From the NCBI GenBank assembly GCA_001871195.1, contig MNXA01000049.1, positions 62,001-126,000 of the forward strand: a DNA stretch of 64,000 nt. The letters are read 5' to 3'. The stretch comes from Zetaproteobacteria bacterium CG1_02_55_237. GTDB taxonomy: Bacteria; Pseudomonadota; Zetaproteobacteria; Mariprofundales; Mariprofundaceae. A model generated the notes under the pieces. That model ran no database searches. It was not told the DNA's origin and worked only from the letters and a program-made list of their open reading frames with translations. Below are positions 15,869 to 24,530 of this stretch, in pieces. How positions within the stretch are numbered: the stretch's first letter is position 1; every line of letters starts with the position of its first letter. The position numbers and the translations under genes were made by a program.

Positions 15869-17518
<1,650 letters not shown>

Positions 17519-17734: not shown

Positions 17735-18955
17735 ATGAAGCTCAAAGACTTACAGATAAAGCATTTACGCCATAGCGGTGCAAGTAAAAAAACTGAACCT
17801 ATTTCAGACGGTGACGGCTTGTTTCTCATCCTTCACCCATCCAACACCAAAACATGGCAACTTCGCTATACGCTGAATGGCAAACGGGATAAAATAAAAA
17901 TTGGCGATCACCCCTATCCAGCCGTAAGCCTCGAACACGCGCGAAATCTTGCGGCAGAGCTTCGTGAAGAAATCGCCCTTGGCATTGACCCCAAAGCAAA
18001 AAAGGAAGAAGCAAACAAGCGACTATTTGAACCGCTTGCATTGGAGTGGTGGCAGGACAACAAAGAATCTTGGAGTGCCGACCATGCCGAGAAGGTGAAA
18101 AAGTGGCTGGTTAAAGATGTGTTCCCTCAAATTGGGAAGCTGCCCGTTACTGAAATAGATCATGGGCATATTGCAGACATCATGCTTGGCATTGAAAAAG
18201 CAGGGCATCCAACCTGTGCAGCTCCGATTTTGAGTGTACTTAATCGAATCTTTGGCCGCGCCTTGGTTCGCAAGTTCACTACGATTAACCCTGCGCAATG
18301 CTTCCCCCTTAAAGATGTGATTAAGCCTATACCCAAAGTTCAGCACAGAGCTGCTATCACGGAACCCAAGCAGCTTGGAGCACTACTGCGCGATATTGAA
18401 AACTGGAAGGATGGCGCATATAGCACCGTTCAATCATTGCGACTTATTCCCTATATCTTTTTAAGACCGAAAGAAATCAGGCTGATGCGCTGGGAGTATG
18501 TGGACTTTGACGCTGGATTGATCCGCCTGCCTGATTCTGAAATGAAGAAAGACCGTGATCATCTTGTGCCGATGGCTCGGCAAGTGATGCAGCAACTCAA
18601 AGAAGTGCAGATCATGACCGGATATAGCCCCTATGTGTTCCCATCCAGCCGCAACAGCGAACTACCCATGAGTAAGAACGTTATCACCAATGCATTGAGA
18701 GTCATGGGCTATGGTGCTGATGTGATGTGTGGACATGGTTTTAGAAGCACCGCGTCAACATTGCTGCATGAACAAAATTGGCATCATGATGTGATTGAAA
18801 CACAGCTTGCCCATCTTACAGGCAGCGCAACATCAAGAGCTTACAACAGGTCAATGCACTTGGCAGAGCGCACCAAAATGATGCAGGCATGGGCTGATTA
18901 CCTTGATGCATTGCGTGATGGTGCTGAGATTATTGCCATCGGTAGAAAAGCATGA
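17735..18955 (+). CDS. int: tyrosine-type site-specific integrase (P4 family)
   Basis: The 406-residue recombinase has the DUF4102-type N-terminal arm-binding domain (residues about 1-95, with DGDGLFLILHPSNTKTW), a core-binding SAM-like domain (about 98-180) and a catalytic domain. Active-site residues are Arg244 (FLRPKEIR), His334 and Arg337 (GHGFR), His360 (QLAH) and Tyr370 (SRAYNRS). It is encoded next to the left attachment repeat, reading away from it. The upstream region forms a hairpin, ACCTTT-CGG-AAAGGT (17711-17725), whose 3' arm includes the AAAGGT ribosome-binding site, which could limit translation. The next gene overlaps its stop by 4 nt (ATGA). Confidence 0.95.
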   Translation: MKLKDLQIKHLRHSGASKKTEPISDGDGLFLILHPSNTKTWQLRYTLNGKRDKIKIGDHPYPAVSLEHARNLAAELREEIALGIDPKAKKEEANKRLFEPLALEWWQDNKESWSADHAEKVKKWLVKDVFPQIGKLPVTEIDHGHIADIMLGIEKAGHPTCAAPILSVLNRIFGRALVRKFTTINPAQCFPLKDVIKPIPKVQHRAAITEPKQLGALLRDIENWKDGAYSTVQSLRLIPYIFLRPKEIRLMRWEYVDFDAGLIRLPDSEMKKDRDHLVPMARQVMQQLKEVQIMTGYSPYVFPSSRNSELPMSKNVITNALRVMGYGADVMCGHGFRSTASTLLHEQNWHHDVIETQLAHLTGSATSRAYNRSMHLAERTKMMQAWADYLDALRDGAEIIAIGRKA

Positions 18956-19536
18956 GCTCCACATTAGAAGATGAAATTAAGTCTGCATTACAAGCCGCCG
19001 CACATGGGGCCGATTACATACAAGAAAAAGTCAAATACATGACCTTGCCTGAAAACCTTGAGGAATGGCTTTCAAAGCAAAGCGACTACGCTTCAACTTT
19101 ACCAAGCGAACTAGAAGAACAAAAAAAAATAATTAACCGATATATTCAAATTATTTCAGGGGAGCTGAAAAAAAACGATGATTCTACGTTGCGCAGATTC
19201 TTTTATATGCTTTTAAAGGAAATCGATATTACCCACGACAATGAAGGAATATTAGCAAATAATTCTGCAAGAAAGGCTAAAGGTGAGAGAAGTAATCCAT
19301 CATACTCTGATGACTTAAACCGCATTATTCGAAATAAAATAAAGTGCCTGAATACAACAAATACAAGAAAAATTTTATATAGTCTTGATGGTGAATCTTT
19401 TGGTTGTATAGATTCTATAGAGCTAATTGATAATAAACTGTCTATCACATTCGTGGGGATAGATGACACATTAAAGGATGCGCCTTCTATAGGTTTGAAA
19501 GCACTTAGTAATCGAATAACAAAACTAAAACAATAA
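18952..19536 (+). CDS. hypothetical protein, coupled to integrase
   Basis: I do not recognise this 194-residue protein. It is hydrophilic and mostly helical, without a signal peptide or membrane segment; residues about 20-75 and 85-110 could form coiled helices rich in Glu/Lys, and the last 50 residues look beta-rich (IDSIELIDNKLSITFVGID). The gene is AT-rich and its ATG overlaps the integrase stop (ATGA), so it is translated with the integrase. A role in recombination control or as a cargo protein are both possible. Confidence 0.7.
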   Translation: MSSTLEDEIKSALQAAAHGADYIQEKVKYMTLPENLEEWLSKQSDYASTLPSELEEQKKIINRYIQIISGELKKNDDSTLRRFFYMLLKEIDITHDNEGILANNSARKAKGERSNPSYSDDLNRIIRNKIKCLNTTNTRKILYSLDGESFGCIDSIELIDNKLSITFVGIDDTLKDAPSIGLKALSNRITKLKQ

Positions 19537-19622: not shown

Positions 19623-19835
19623 ATGAAGAACTACCAAAGAGCACAAGCCCTTGCAGATGAAAAAAATGTAAGTGTCTCAACAATCTGGCGGTGGACTGCT
19701 GCTGGAATTATTCCACAACCACTACGACCAACCAAAAGAACAAGCCTGTTTGATGTTGAAGCAGTTGATCAAGCTTTGGCAAGATTTGGTGAAGATAACG
19801 CCGCCCATGCCACCGAAGGATTGGGGGCATCATGA
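19623..19835 (+). CDS. AlpA/MerR-like helix-turn-helix protein, probable excisionase or regulator
   Basis: The 70-residue protein contains a winged HTH of the AlpA/MerR type: VSVSTIWRWTAAGIIPQPLRP, followed by SLFDVEAVDQALARF. Such proteins in P4-like elements act as excisionases or activate the integrase gene. A strong GGAGG precedes the ATG. It begins a chain of overlapping genes: its stop overlaps the next start by 4 nt. It is encoded just after the integrase block, as expected for a recombination directionality factor. Confidence 0.8.
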   Translation: MKNYQRAQALADEKNVSVSTIWRWTAAGIIPQPLRPTKRTSLFDVEAVDQALARFGEDNAAHATEGLGAS

Positions 19836-20077
19836 ACACACTTAATAACAATCCATCAAGTGAAACACAGCGCAACATGATCCTGGAGCTTATCGCCAAC
19901 AATAGGTGCATGAGCACGCTGGATGCTCGTAACAACAGCATCATGCATCCTGCAATGCGAATTAAAGAATTGCGCTCAATGGGTCACAACATCGTTACTA
20001 ATTGGATCAGACAAGCCGATCAGGCTGGCGTGATGCACCGTATAGCTGTTTATACCCATGATGGTGATGCTGAATGA
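19832..20077 (+). CDS. helix-turn-helix domain protein (HTH_39-like)
   Basis: The 81-residue protein matches the small HTH_39-type pattern: QRNMILELIANNRCMSTLDAR, then MHPAMRIKELRSMGHNIVTNW. These proteins occur in prophages and integrative elements and probably bind DNA. It overlaps both the preceding AlpA-like gene and the next gene by 4 nt, so it is translated as part of one polycistronic unit. Confidence 0.75.
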   Translation: MNTLNNNPSSETQRNMILELIANNRCMSTLDARNNSIMHPAMRIKELRSMGHNIVTNWIRQADQAGVMHRIAVYTHDGDAE

Positions 20078-20376
20078 ATATCACCATTAAAGAGAAGGCA
20101 AGGGCTCACCTTTTTGGAGTGTGCCTGATTGATTCAAGTTTTGCATATCGCTTACCGGCATCTATCCACTTATCTGAATATGGAGCGTTCACCATTTCCA
20201 TGATTCAGCAAGGTTTGGGCATAGAAGCGATCATAAAACACTTAGAAGCTGTAGGCATAGCAGAGGCACAAGACATGCTTCTAAACGCACTGAAGGCCGT
20301 TCCTGATGGCATGTGTTTGTATTCTATGTTCTGGGATGCGGTACAGGTGCTTACTGCCAGCATGGTGAGAGCATGA
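20074..20376 (+). CDS. hypothetical protein of the element operon
   Basis: This 100-residue protein is not recognised. It is mixed alpha/beta with no signal peptide; residues about 30-65 (ISMIQQGLGIEAIIKHLEAVGIAEAQDML) look like two amphipathic helices. Both ends overlap neighbouring genes by 4 nt (ATGA), which supports it as a real gene in the operon leading to the replication protein. Confidence 0.65.
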   Translation: MNITIKEKARAHLFGVCLIDSSFAYRLPASIHLSEYGAFTISMIQQGLGIEAIIKHLEAVGIAEAQDMLLNALKAVPDGMCLYSMFWDAVQVLTASMVRA

Positions 20377-20450
20377 ACATCTATCTTCATGCAGCGGAAT
20401 TGTCTCAATATATAAAAGCGGTTTCGTCTCAGCGGTTTCGTCTCAGCTAA
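20373..20450 (+). CDS. possible 25-residue coupled ORF before the replication gene
   Basis: A 25-codon frame starts with an ATGA overlap on the stop of the preceding gene and ends with TAATG, sharing its last base with the ATG of the Gp2-like gene. Its product (MNIYLHAAELSQYIKAVSSQ, then RFRLS) is not recognised. The second half is encoded by the tandem repeat at 20418-20445. It could be a translational coupler rather than a functional peptide. Confidence 0.4.
   Translation: MNIYLHAAELSQYIKAVSSQRFRLS
20418..20445 (+). repeat. tandem 14-bp direct repeat upstream of the replication gene
   Basis: GCGGTTTCGTCTCA occurs twice head to tail at 20418-20431 and 20432-20445. It is followed about 50 nt later by the inverted repeat at 20494-20514, which carries GAGACGGTT, close to the reverse complement of the repeat core. 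This pattern next to a HUH-type replication gene suggests an origin or an autoregulatory site. Confidence 0.6.
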
Positions 20451-21148
20451 TGGGCAATCAAGCCTTGGAATCATTAGAAATCGGCAACAGTAAAACCGTC
20501 CGAACGAGACGGTTATTACTAATATCTAATCTAGGAGATAGCTCACTTAATAGGAAAAACAGCACGAGAAATAGAAAGACAAAATTGGCCTGTGAAAGTT
20601 TTGAGCATGAAGGCGTGCATTATAAGGTCAACTCAAAGAAATCAGGCATCTATAAAGAGATCATGTTCAAAATAATTGAGCAGATGAAAATAGCTAGAGA
20701 GATACACAACCGATTGCTAGTGGTTCGGTTTGATTTGCACAGTGGAAATTTCAGCCAAGGGAATGAAGAAATAAGCCTGTTTAGGAAACAAATCATACAA
20801 TGGGTCACAAGGCACTATCAAACGCACTCTATAGGCTTTGTGTGGGCTAGAGAGCAAGAAAAAGCCAAGTCTCAGCACTACCATTTAGCCATATTCATTG
20901 ATGGTGACAAAATCAGGCACCCCAAAAGGCTATTGAAAGAAATCAGAGACAAATGGGAAGTAAAAGACCCTTGGAACCACCACAAACCGTTTGTTGAAAA
21001 ACCAGCCTATTTCATTAACAGCGACGAAGTGTTTCATGATGCAGTTTATCGCCTGAGCTATTTGGCAAAAGTTAGAGGTAAGGGCTACCGACCGGAACAG
21101 TCTAAAGATTACAGCACCAGTAGATTGAGGTTGAAAAATGATAACTGA
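20450..21148 (+). CDS. inovirus Gp2 / YagK-YfjJ-type replication protein
   Basis: The 232-residue protein has the Gp2-like C-terminal domain found in P4-like elements (YagK/YfjJ) and in filamentous-phage-related Gp2 proteins. LLVVRFDLHSGN precedes GFVWAREQEKAKSQHYHLAIF, where His143-Tyr-His145 forms an HUH-type metal motif, and then YFINSDEVFHDAVYRLSYLAKV. HUH enzymes nick DNA to start rolling-circle replication. Its ATG overlaps the stop of the 25-codon frame, and the first ~45 residues hold a hairpin-forming DNA segment (20494-20514), so the origin may lie within the gene start. Confidence 0.78.
   Translation: MGNQALESLEIGNSKTVRTRRLLLISNLGDSSLNRKNSTRNRKTKLACESFEHEGVHYKVNSKKSGIYKEIMFKIIEQMKIAREIHNRLLVVRFDLHSGNFSQGNEEISLFRKQIIQWVTRHYQTHSIGFVWAREQEKAKSQHYHLAIFIDGDKIRHPKRLLKEIRDKWEVKDPWNHHKPFVEKPAYFINSDEVFHDAVYRLSYLAKVRGKGYRPEQSKDYSTSRLRLKNDN
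20494..20514 (+). repeat. inverted repeat near the start of the replication gene (candidate nick/origin site)
   Basis: AACCGTC (20494-20500) and GACGGTT (20508-20514) form a perfect 7-bp stem with a 7-nt loop CGAACGA. It lies about 45 nt into the Gp2-like coding region and shares its core with the tandem repeat upstream. HUH enzymes commonly nick in or beside such a hairpin. Confidence 0.5.
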
Positions 21149-21797
21149 AGATACAAAGCAGGCAGCAATATCAAACACAGAAAAGGCATGTGGTAAGATG
21201 GCAAAGGCAGAGCGCATTTCCGCATCTGGAGATGCAAGGCCACATGAAATGATTATGGCTAACTGCCTTGTGAAAGAAGCTGATAATTTAATGGCTGTTG
21301 ATTCTGATTCGCTGGAGCTTGAATCTGGAGAGGTTAAAGCGCACTCCAGCAAGCAAAGCATGTACCCACTGACCGAAAGCCCTGATATGGCAGCGGTAGA
21401 GTCATCTATCCAGAGAATGGAGCTTTCTGGAGGTGTGGACTGTTTAAGTATCGGGATTGATACAGCGAACAGCATTAAGGCCAAAGACACGCCCGAGAGG
21501 ATGCTTGCTCACCAGATGGCCGCTTGTCACAAGGTGGCGTTCAATCTGATGAGGGAGGCTGAACAGATAGATGCCAGGTATCGACTTGATGCAAATACAG
21601 CCAGTGTTATTCAGTCGCGCAAACTCAATTCAGCCAATCGTTTGATGCAAACCTTTCAGCAAGCCATGCTGACATTGCAGAAGATGCGAACAGGCGGCAA
21701 GCAGGTGATGACGGTACAGCATGTTCAAGTGAATGATGGTGGTCAGGCCATCGTGGCGGGGGGCGATGCGGGGCGGTCAAATGGCGAAAAAGAGTAA
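21138..21797 (+). CDS. hypothetical protein of the element operon
   Basis: The 219-residue protein is not recognised by name. The N-terminal ~120 residues are polar and low in conservation features. The C-terminal part (HQMAACHKVAFNLMREAEQ through RLMQTFQQAMLTLQKMRTGGKQ) is strongly helical, and the end is glycine-rich (VNDGGQAIVAGGDAG). Its C-terminus and its position directly before an HGGxTG gene resemble paired genes seen in prophage-like islands. It overlaps the preceding gene by 11 nt and the next by 17 nt. Confidence 0.65.
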   Translation: MITEDTKQAAISNTEKACGKMAKAERISASGDARPHEMIMANCLVKEADNLMAVDSDSLELESGEVKAHSSKQSMYPLTESPDMAAVESSIQRMELSGGVDCLSIGIDTANSIKAKDTPERMLAHQMAACHKVAFNLMREAEQIDARYRLDANTASVIQSRKLNSANRLMQTFQQAMLTLQKMRTGGKQVMTVQHVQVNDGGQAIVAGGDAGRSNGEKE

Positions 21798-22026
21798 ACC
21801 CTATAAGCCGTTTGAGAATATCCGATATTGTGGCGCAAAAACGCGAACAACAGAGCAACCCTGCAAGGGTTCAGCTATGGCAAATGGTCGCTGTAGGCTG
21901 CATGGTGGGCTTTCTACTGGCAGGCCAATCACAACAGGCCAGTGGACGAAACAGGCCATTGAGCAGCGCAAAGAGGCTGCTCAGATAATCAGGCAAATAA
22001 AAGAATCTATTGCCTCCCCAGTATAA
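21781..22026 (+). CDS. HGGxTG-motif small protein
   Basis: From the ATG at 21781 this is an 81-residue protein with a zinc-ribbon-like pattern: RYCGAKTRTTEQPCKGSAM, then NGRCRLHGGLSTGRPI. Three cysteines and a histidine could bind a metal, and LHGGxSTG is the hallmark of small proteins common in phages and integrative elements, whose role is unknown. The frame extends upstream to 21733, but that start lies inside the previous gene. The 17-nt overlap indicates coupled translation. Confidence 0.75.
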   Translation: MAKKSKPYKPFENIRYCGAKTRTTEQPCKGSAMANGRCRLHGGLSTGRPITTGQWTKQAIEQRKEAAQIIRQIKESIASPV

Positions 22027-22217
22027 ATAATGGAGAAATTATTGGCATGCTCTTGCTGGCGACTGTCTCAAACCGCCAGAATTGGTCATTCAGCTTTAAG
22101 CTGTGCCTACTGTTTATGGGATGGGCCACAATATAGGTTCACTTGTATTGAATCAGTAATAATTGTTTTGTGCTGTGCTAGACTGACTGCATCCTGCAAA
22201 GAGGAAGGGAGGGGTAG

Positions 22218-23552
22218 ATGTTTGAAGAGGGGCTTCCAGATTTCCTAGTAAGTGGTGAAAAGGCTCGATTAATTCCTGTTGGGAAAGAAAGTAATAAAGA
22301 AAGAAATGTGGCATCTGTTTTTCTTTCAGCAATATCTGCTGTTGATGAGTTTGGGAAAGAGTTACTAAAAGAAATTGGTGCCCCAATAAACTCGCGATCA
22401 AAAATCCATTGCTATACCGAAGTAGTATTTAAAGAAAAGATACAAACAACAAAAGACCGCCCGGATGGATTGATTGTTGTTGAATATGGAAAGACCTTCT
22501 GGATGGCACTGGTAGAAGCAAAAATCGGGAACGCCCCATTAAATAAAGAGCAAATAGAGACGTACTTAGATATAGCAAGGACATTCAAAGTTAATGCGCT
22601 GATAACCGTCTCAAATCAATTTGCCAGCTTACCAACTCACCACCCTATTCAAGTAGATAAGAGAAAGATAAAAACTGTTTCTCTCTACCATTGGTCATGG
22701 ACAAGCATCGTGGCCAACGCCCTTCTGCTGGCATCGAACAAAAGCATATCTGATCCTGATCAGGCATTTATTCTTGAAGAATTACTTCGCTTTCTTCGTC
22801 ACCCTAATTCGGGAGTCTTGTCATTCACTAGGATGGGGCCGGAATGGAAAGATGTTTGCCAAGCGGTTTTAACTACCCCTCTAAAGAAACACGCCCCAGA
22901 GGTTGAATCGACCGTAAGTACTTGGCATCAGCTTGTTAAGTATCTCGCTTTAGAAATGAGTGTAGCCACTAGCAATCCCGTTGCAGTTTATATGAGTAGA
23001 AACCATAAAGAGTCAGCGCAAAATTACATGCAGGCTGGCGTAACATCATTGGTTGATCGTAATGAACTGGAAAGCCAATTCGTTGTCCCAAACACAGCAG
23101 GGCGAATAAAACTCGTGGCAGATATTAAGGGGAGAACGCTAGTTGCATCTATGCGGTTAGATGCTCCAAAAGATAAGCAGCAAGTAAAGTCTAGAGTCGC
23201 ATGGTTGGTACGCCAACTCAGCAAATGCGCTGACACAGCCATGCAAATTAAAATCATCTGGCCTAATCGATCAGCTGACGATGTCTATTGTTTAACCGAC
23301 CTTAGAGAAGAGAAAGTTGTAGTAACCCCTCCATCAGCGAAAGCCTTACCGAACGCTTTTGAGGTTATGCGCGTTTATGAACTTGCTGGCCGTTTTGCAG
23401 CTCCCAAAGTCTTTGTCGAAGAAGCCGAAAAAATATTGCCGGACTTTTATGAAAATGCGGGACAACATCTAAGAGCGTGGATTGCACCTCCACCAAAGAT
23501 CAAACCGCAAAGGGATGAAGAAGATGAAGATAATCGAATCAAGCTGGAGTGA
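22218..23552 (+). CDS. predicted PD-(D/E)XK nuclease, element cargo
   Basis: The 444-residue protein has a nuclease-like N-terminal domain of about 150 residues: Glu28 in a helix, Asp83 (RPDGLIVVE), Glu100-Ala-Lys102 (WMALVEAKIG) and Gln112 within LNKEQIETYLDIAR. This is the D...ExK plus Q-x3-Y pattern of RecB/Mrr-type nucleases. The rest (about 160-444) is not recognised and may sense or bind a target; the C-terminus is acidic (DEEDEDN). The start is supported by GGAAGGGAGGGG upstream, and a 190-nt gap separates it from the replication operon, so it probably has its own promoter. Its cargo position resembles defence genes in P4-like elements. Function is inferred. Confidence 0.72.
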   Translation: MFEEGLPDFLVSGEKARLIPVGKESNKERNVASVFLSAISAVDEFGKELLKEIGAPINSRSKIHCYTEVVFKEKIQTTKDRPDGLIVVEYGKTFWMALVEAKIGNAPLNKEQIETYLDIARTFKVNALITVSNQFASLPTHHPIQVDKRKIKTVSLYHWSWTSIVANALLLASNKSISDPDQAFILEELLRFLRHPNSGVLSFTRMGPEWKDVCQAVLTTPLKKHAPEVESTVSTWHQLVKYLALEMSVATSNPVAVYMSRNHKESAQNYMQAGVTSLVDRNELESQFVVPNTAGRIKLVADIKGRTLVASMRLDAPKDKQQVKSRVAWLVRQLSKCADTAMQIKIIWPNRSADDVYCLTDLREEKVVVTPPSAKALPNAFEVMRVYELAGRFAAPKVFVEEAEKILPDFYENAGQHLRAWIAPPPKIKPQRDEEDEDNRIKLE

Positions 23553-23607: not shown

Positions 23608-24150
23608 TTATTGAGCTTGGCCACAATATTTCCTCACCTGTAATATGTATTGCTTACCTTCAGGTAAGTCGAAGTGGCCATCGAAGCTACGACCATTACT
23701 CCCAAAGGCCCTTACTGTGACCTTCTCACCAGATAGCAGGGCATCTATCATTGTCTTTGCGTCATCGGGCCAGAATGCCTGCCCAGATAACGCTGGTGTT
23801 GCAGTGGAATTAACTGGTGGGTTTTGATCAACCCTGTACATAATCTTCATATTATCTTGGGTCGAGTAGAAACCCTTAATGCCGATTACTACCGCTAGTT
23901 TTTTGTCATAGCAGCCAACATCCAAAGTACCCCAAAATTCAGAAACCCCTGTAGTGGAAAAGGACACTTTATCTGTCATAGCATCTTTCGTTTCAGGCGA
24001 CATATACCAAGAGGTCTTAAACTCACCAAGAAAAGCGTCAGTCCGTTCTATTGTTTGTTGAACGGTATAGCGTTCATAAGCTAGGTAGCCCGCGAGAAGA
24101 AGGGTGGCTACCCCCAAGATTATCAACAGCCACTTAAATGCTTTTTTCAT
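23608..24150 (-). CDS. membrane-anchored hypothetical protein, element cargo
   Basis: From the ATG at 24150 (preceded by AGGGG) the protein has 180 residues. It has a basic start and one membrane helix (FKWLLIILGVATLLLAGYLAY, about residues 5-25), then an extracytoplasmic domain with two cysteines and GFYSTQDNMKIMYRVD and FGSNGRSFDGHFDLPEG. I do not recognise the domain. It is convergent with the nuclease gene, 55 nt apart, and is transcribed from near the right end of the element. It could be a superinfection or phage-adsorption factor, but nothing in the sequence proves this. Confidence 0.65.
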   Translation of the reverse strand: MKKAFKWLLIILGVATLLLAGYLAYERYTVQQTIERTDAFLGEFKTSWYMSPETKDAMTDKVSFSTTGVSEFWGTLDVGCYDKKLAVVIGIKGFYSTQDNMKIMYRVDQNPPVNSTATPALSGQAFWPDDAKTMIDALLSGEKVTVRAFGSNGRSFDGHFDLPEGKQYILQVRKYCGQAQ

Positions 24151-24339
24151 GTTTAACCCCTGTGATACTAATTGGAACAACATGCTCCCCATAGGTCAAA
24201 CGATTAAAAACAACTACAAGGCTGCTAACATCGACAGCAGTGAATATATCAGTTCTGGCGAAGCACGAGGTTGAACAACGGCAGGAAGTGGCCAGTTTGA
24301 TACAGTCACAAACAACTTATCAAAAGTTAAGCGCATACC

Positions 24340-24413: not shown

Positions 24414-24431
24414 ATGGGCGGCATGATGTAA
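24414..24431 (+). repeat. right attachment-site repeat (attR core)
   Basis: An exact copy of the last 18 bases of groEL, including TAA at 24429-24431. It has no reading frame of its own. It marks the right junction; native downstream DNA resumes with the terminator at 24456. Confidence 0.9.
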
Positions 24432-24455
24432 GAGCCCTGCCCGGGCACAAAAACG

Positions 24456-24486
24456 AAAGCGGCCTCTCCGGAGGCCGCTTTTTCTA
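24456..24486 (+). terminator. native groESL terminator, displaced by the element
   Basis: AAGCGGCCTC (24457-24466) pairs with GAGGCCGCTT (24471-24480) over a TCCG loop, followed by TTTTC. It is a textbook terminator about 25 nt after the right repeat, where groEL would have ended before insertion. No gene in its immediate neighbourhood needs it now. Confidence 0.9.
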
Positions 24487-24530
24487 TTTGGTTCTGACTT
24501 TGTTTTGGTTTTAACCTTGGGTCCCGCTTG

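Follow-up and report, generated by a model that had tools for sequence, protein, structure and literature searches.

P4-like satellites have hotspots for anti-phage cargo (PMC9122126), and Ter (TerD) systems have been associated with both stress and anti-phage responses (PMC7824862, PMC3710099). The gene described here belongs to an integrated element in a window of 64,000 nucleotides from Zetaproteobacteria bacterium CG1_02_55_237, and it resembles each of these settings in part. Like a P4-like satellite, the element is integrated and has a variable cargo place, at which two related elements hold nuclease genes; unlike the satellites, it has no recognised P4 hallmark gene, it lies at groEL and its cargo is putatively anti-phage. 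Actinobacterial relatives of the protein share the TerD domain of Ter systems, N-terminal in the same polypeptide, whereas Pfam finds no TerD domain in the window protein, and none of the element's genes was recognised as a ter gene. The third comparison is with the PD-(D/E)XK superfamily, which includes VRR_NUC, PDDEXK_4 and Mrr_cat and in which EcoT38I is the nearest solved fold. The window family has the core order and an E...E...D...E-x-K...Q-x3-Y pattern, but differs from known PD-(D/E)XK enzymes in its merely marginal profile scores, its new C-terminal domain and the lack of a methyltransferase partner.

Results

Integrated element behind groEL

The element is 6.9 kb long with exact ends, and the nuclease gene is its cargo. 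Its ends are identical copies of the 18-bp repeat ATGGGCGGCATGATGTAA on the + strand, attL (17501..17518) at the groEL 3' end including the stop codon and attR at 24414..24431. When groEL was joined to the right flank, the resulting sequence aligned across the junction to G002, a genome of the same genus, with 88% identity and small gaps only, and G002 has the empty site of the element. GC content is 43.6% inside the element, compared with about 57% on either side. An integrase, flanking att repeats and an empty site together identify an integrative element, and the repeats and the empty site bear out the cargo position that the first-pass annotation had assigned to the nuclease gene. The attachment site is the groEL 3' end, and groEL itself is left intact. 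A terminator-like hairpin (24455-24482) has been displaced from groEL to the region beyond attR (24432-24500).

Upstream of the nuclease, all genes of the element are on the + strand. They encode a tyrosine integrase (17735..18955; Arm-DNA-bind_3, Phage_int_M and Phage_integrase in Pfam), a 194-aa protein behind it (18952..19536), an AlpA/MerR-like helix-turn-helix protein with weak HTH matches below the Pfam cut-off (19623..19835), a winged helix-turn-helix protein (19832..20077; HTH_39 in Pfam), a 100-aa protein conserved in sister elements (20074..20376; blastp to L136, L137 and L138), a YagK/YfjJ_C Rep-like backbone protein conserved in five sister elements (20450..21148; YagK_YfjJ_C and REP_ORF2-G2P in Pfam), a 219-aa protein (21138..21797) and an HGGxSTG domain protein (21733..22026; NCBIfam NF041373). 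Neither the 194-aa nor the 219-aa protein matched a family above cut-off in Pfam, NCBIfam or PHROGs. The element's right end carries a convergent ORF of 194 aa on the - strand (23608..24192), which has a hydrophobic N-terminal segment, matches the unannotated phrog_1848 and is a candidate second cargo gene.

The hallmark genes of P4 are primase alpha, sid, delta and psu. None of them was recognised among the element genes scanned against Pfam, NCBIfam and PHROGs, and therefore the earlier description of the element as P4-like is too strong. Within the bacterial family, other genomes yielded five sister elements, whose YagK proteins reach 62% identity, and no copy of the nuclease was seen in any of them. 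In the sister element of genome G020, YagK is followed by two HNH genes, one HNH_2 and restriction-like, the other HNH-HIT (L135:4870-6806). Since these HNH genes occupy the equivalent place, the cargo position varies, and on at least two occasions nuclease genes have come to lie there, as expected from the earlier proposal of a variable cargo place. The HNH-HIT protein of this sister element is itself unusual.

Nuclease gene and start region

The nuclease gene, the main subject of this study, is an ORF at 22218..23552 on the + strand, and both its coordinates and its length of 444 residues were given exactly in the first annotation. The strong ribosome-binding site reported there is present as AGAGGAAGGGAGGGG (22200..22214, +) ahead of the ATG at 22218, and the upstream gap, given there as 190 nt, measures 191 nt (22027-22217) from the preceding gene. 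The independent promoter that had been proposed from this gap was not found: its + strand contains no sigma-70-like match, and promoter-like matches in the region upstream of the gene were no commoner than in shuffles of the same region. An imperfect 31-nt direct repeat (74% identical, 22117-22147 and 23612-23642) flanks the gene. Considered as a scar of cargo exchange, this repeat was no stronger than other short repeats nearby and is perhaps due to chance.

The window protein has no match in Pfam, NCBIfam or PADLOC even at E 1. PADLOC 2023, which we take to include Shedu, returned 0 families for it at this threshold and only weak scattered matches for 66 members of its family. The family is thus absent from the catalogued defence families of PADLOC 2023, and its designation as an undescribed candidate stands to this extent. 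A PHROGs search with the window protein alone found nothing, and sequence searches of solved structures returned no meaningful relative.

N-terminal PD-(D/E)XK domain

Residues 1-199 (22218..22814, +) form the N-terminal domain. Among 14 aligned members, whose identity to the window protein is 26-43%, E28, E68, P82-D83, E100-x-K102, Q112 and Y116 are invariant, and the same set is invariant in 66 members except E28, which is conserved in at least 90% of them. This conservation is far beyond chance and holds in relatives from several phyla. The residues originally singled out as RecB/Mrr-like (E28, D83, E100/K102 and Q112) are therefore all present and invariant in the 14 members. E68, P82 and Y116, also invariant in these members, were absent from that list.

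The AlphaFold model of the window protein, built from the 66-row alignment, has a mean pLDDT of 90.4. Its core elements follow the order alpha-beta-beta-beta-alpha-beta with high pLDDT (H27-41, E62-71, E84-90, E93-101, H110-122 and E127-132), which is the core fold of the PD-(D/E)XK superfamily, and the catalytic D83, E100 and K102, invariant in 66 sequences, provide its D...E-x-K motif. The structure prediction that had been called for thus gives a confident nuclease fold. The best Foldseek match of the nuclease was EcoT38I (E 7e-4), followed by weaker matches to PaqCI, MspJI, BamHI and archaeal Hjc, and family members matched VRR_NUC, PDDEXK_4 and Mrr_cat marginally. Core order, conserved residues and fold matches together indicate that the nuclease chemistry was assigned correctly, and fold and residues suggest that the N-terminal domain has DNase activity.

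The nearest fold being a type II enzyme, the protein might be an orthodox type II restriction-modification nuclease. We consider this very improbable because no methyltransferase recurs beside the nuclease: none occurs among the neighbour clusters present in at least 4 of 86 loci, and none was recognised in the window's element by Pfam or NCBIfam.

C-terminal domain

Residues 200-430 (22815..23507, +) constitute a novel domain. Modelled alone, they reach a pLDDT of 95.5, as a separate and well-folded domain, and a comparison of 59 members with Pfam returned no family and scattered noise only. The roughly 280 residues left unrecognised in the first annotation are therefore real, with no Pfam family and with a confident fold of their own. 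The domain weakly resembles 2a8e (B. subtilis Q45498; E 7e-3, TM 0.45-0.49, 9% identity in the fold alignment), which we assume to be YktB/DUF1054. This likeness is no more than a lead and may go no further than resemblance of fold.

Distribution of the family

A profile scan built from the alignment found 314 relatives in genome contigs, while a single-sequence scan of the same contigs found none. Carriers amount to 3 of 41 genomes (the window's own included), 4 of 78 in the class and 10 of 399 in the phylum, and to 14 of 201 genomes of one other bacterial family, so that the gene is sporadic at 2-7% of genomes in the phylum and this other family. The best 80 of the 314 relatives are mostly from Alpha- and Gammaproteobacteria, with Verrucomicrobia, Chloroflexota, Eisenbacteria, Dadabacteria and others also represented, although several of these 80 are metagenome bins that possibly include foreign contigs. 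Phyla are intermixed in the family tree, and two members from one bacterial family, the window protein and L002, are placed apart. Sporadic occurrence and a phylum-mixing tree argue for a mobile accessory gene that has been moved horizontally. Occurrence mainly as a conserved housekeeping gene had been named as an outcome that would speak against a defence gene; frequencies of 10/399 and 14/201 rule out a housekeeping gene.

Full-length relatives are carried by 11 Rhodococcus and Streptomyces plasmids. None was found in 50,697 phage records, and two viral contigs each have one. By gene names read from the sequences, the relative in the first contig is accompanied by serine recombinase, terminase-like and DNA-methylase-like genes, and that in the second immediately precedes HNH, terminase and portal genes. 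The latter arrangement, together with the small size of the carrier element and its integrase and Rep-like genes, would agree with a function for the element itself, either to interfere with a helper phage or to process the element's DNA in excision, replication or packaging. Such a function is improbable, since no copy of the gene was seen in the five sister elements and most relatives lie outside elements of this kind.

TerD fusions and K+ channel pairs

In 10 of the 11 plasmid records, the relative is annotated as 'TerD family protein'. The TerD domain lies N-terminal to the nuclease within the same protein in the three proteins tested (E 1e-40 to 5e-49). The TerD-nuclease proteins of these Rhodococcus and Streptomyces plasmids are located at L005:5164-7311, L006:5236-7227, L008:4218-6257, L009:4221-6263 and L010:4161-6257.

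In about nine other loci, a K+ channel gene directly adjoins the nuclease gene on the same strand. These genes include L044:10362-11162, L057:8144-8980, L062:8228-8989, L063:8165-8992, L069:8114-8989 and L097:8172-8924, and a tblastn search with the channel added L056, L074, L120 and L121, of which L121 may be the same genome as L062, and L120 the same as L057. The channel is of the voltage-gated type, with a TxGYG filter and, for L063, an Ion_trans match. Spacing between nuclease and channel ranges from a 4-nt overlap to a 68-nt gap in L057, L062, L063, L069, L097 and L044 (Eisenbacteria), in the last of which the channel gene is downstream of the nuclease. Overall, the pairs occur in two phyla and in both gene orders, often with the 4-nt overlap. 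Moreover, among neighbour ORFs called at 86 loci, all TxGYG proteins are at offset +-1 and none elsewhere.

The nuclease of the window has neither TerD nor a channel partner. Hence the single-gene system proposed in the first-pass annotation fits most loci, but not the channel pairs at about nine of them or the fused TerD of the actinobacterial forms. We identified no papers on TerD-nuclease fusions or channel-nuclease pairs in the literature covered, to which a 2012 Ter review that may mention fusions did not belong.

Neighbour genes

Relatives of the nuclease sometimes adjoin defence genes. In L019 the relative adjoins SspF and SspG, in L048 GajA (Gabija) and a UvrD helicase, in L055 an HNH nuclease and in L057 an OLD-like ATPase; downstream of the relative lie a SIR2 protein in L020, at 70 nt, and a type IV-like PLD-helicase in L017, at about 55 nt. 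PADLOC matches showed no clear excess in genes at +-1 over those at +-6, in a test that is weak because it is coarse and lists redundant families only, and we therefore do not claim general enrichment in defence islands. The survey of neighbours suggested earlier thus provides several individual cases and lacks a clear excess.

Many other loci are flanked by ordinary genes, as would be the case for a nuclease of DNA repair or recombination (VRR-NUC or Hjc-like) which acts on branched or damaged DNA and has spread as a fitness gene, not as a defence gene. The weak VRR_NUC matches in 15 of 66 members and the archaeal Hjc among the weak fold matches are consistent with this, and the TerD fusions suggest a general stress response. 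However, a presence in 2-7% of genomes is very sporadic, elements and viral contigs carry the family, and several neighbours are defence genes, which makes a repair role rather unlikely.

The neighbours also bear on modification-dependent (type IV) restriction, in which cutting by the N-terminal domain would follow the reading of a modified base by the C-terminal domain. Because the base is read in this way, no methyltransferase would be needed, and none is seen as a partner. In addition, relatives adjoin type IV-like and phosphorothioate-linked genes, the modification-dependent MspJI is among the best Foldseek matches, and aromatic residues are conserved in the C-terminal domain. Against this, the domain matches no known modified-base reader, and the MspJI match is weak and confined to the nuclease core. 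We regard type IV restriction as a possible, if less than probable, specific form of the defence role favoured below.

Discussion

The element of the window carries as cargo a mobile, accessory gene for a nuclease of two domains. Its most likely job, which we hold with slight rather than strong preference, is to act in defence, against phages or against mobile DNA that competes. Against a defence role speak the many loci among ordinary genes, the lack of a clear excess of PADLOC matches at +-1, the 50,697 phage records with no relative and the absence of a match to any catalogued defence family. Being widespread, uncatalogued, transferred between bacteria and sometimes found beside defence genes, the family is a good candidate for a new anti-virus protein. 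On the evidence of sequence and model, the window nuclease is probably a single-gene, gated system directed against phages or mobile elements, with DNA as its presumed substrate.

According to this model, DNA would be cut by the N-terminal PD-(D/E)XK domain, and the C-terminal domain would keep the nuclease inactive until it encounters abnormal DNA or a cue of infection. Sensing of a phage signal by this domain, as put forward in the first-pass annotation, is a hypothesis. In other members, gating by the C-terminal domain may be assisted by TerD where this is fused to the protein, or by the K+ channel where its gene is adjacent, so that C-terminal domain, TerD and channel are all candidate gates. 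With no recurrent partner methyltransferase, host DNA would have to be spared through gating or through a requirement for modified or unusual DNA. A further, doubtful extension is that ionic or membrane disturbance during infection activates the family. Lineages would differ in how they sense it, through the TerD fusion, through the K+ channel operon or, in the window, through the protein's own C-terminal domain.

Compared with PADLOC 2023, the family and its architecture may be new; the superfamily is known, as is satellite cargo as a setting (PMC9122126). An earlier mention is possible. The N-terminal TerD fusion of the actinobacterial forms and the pairing with a K+ channel at about nine loci are new here.

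The nuclease family described here is uncatalogued, numbers more than 300 members and has a new C-terminal domain. Its TerD fusion and K+ channel operon suggest how a single-protein nuclease may stay off until it is needed. If confirmed as a defence system, it would add a family that is missed by current defence annotation, and would offer a testable link from membrane or ion stress to DNA cutting.
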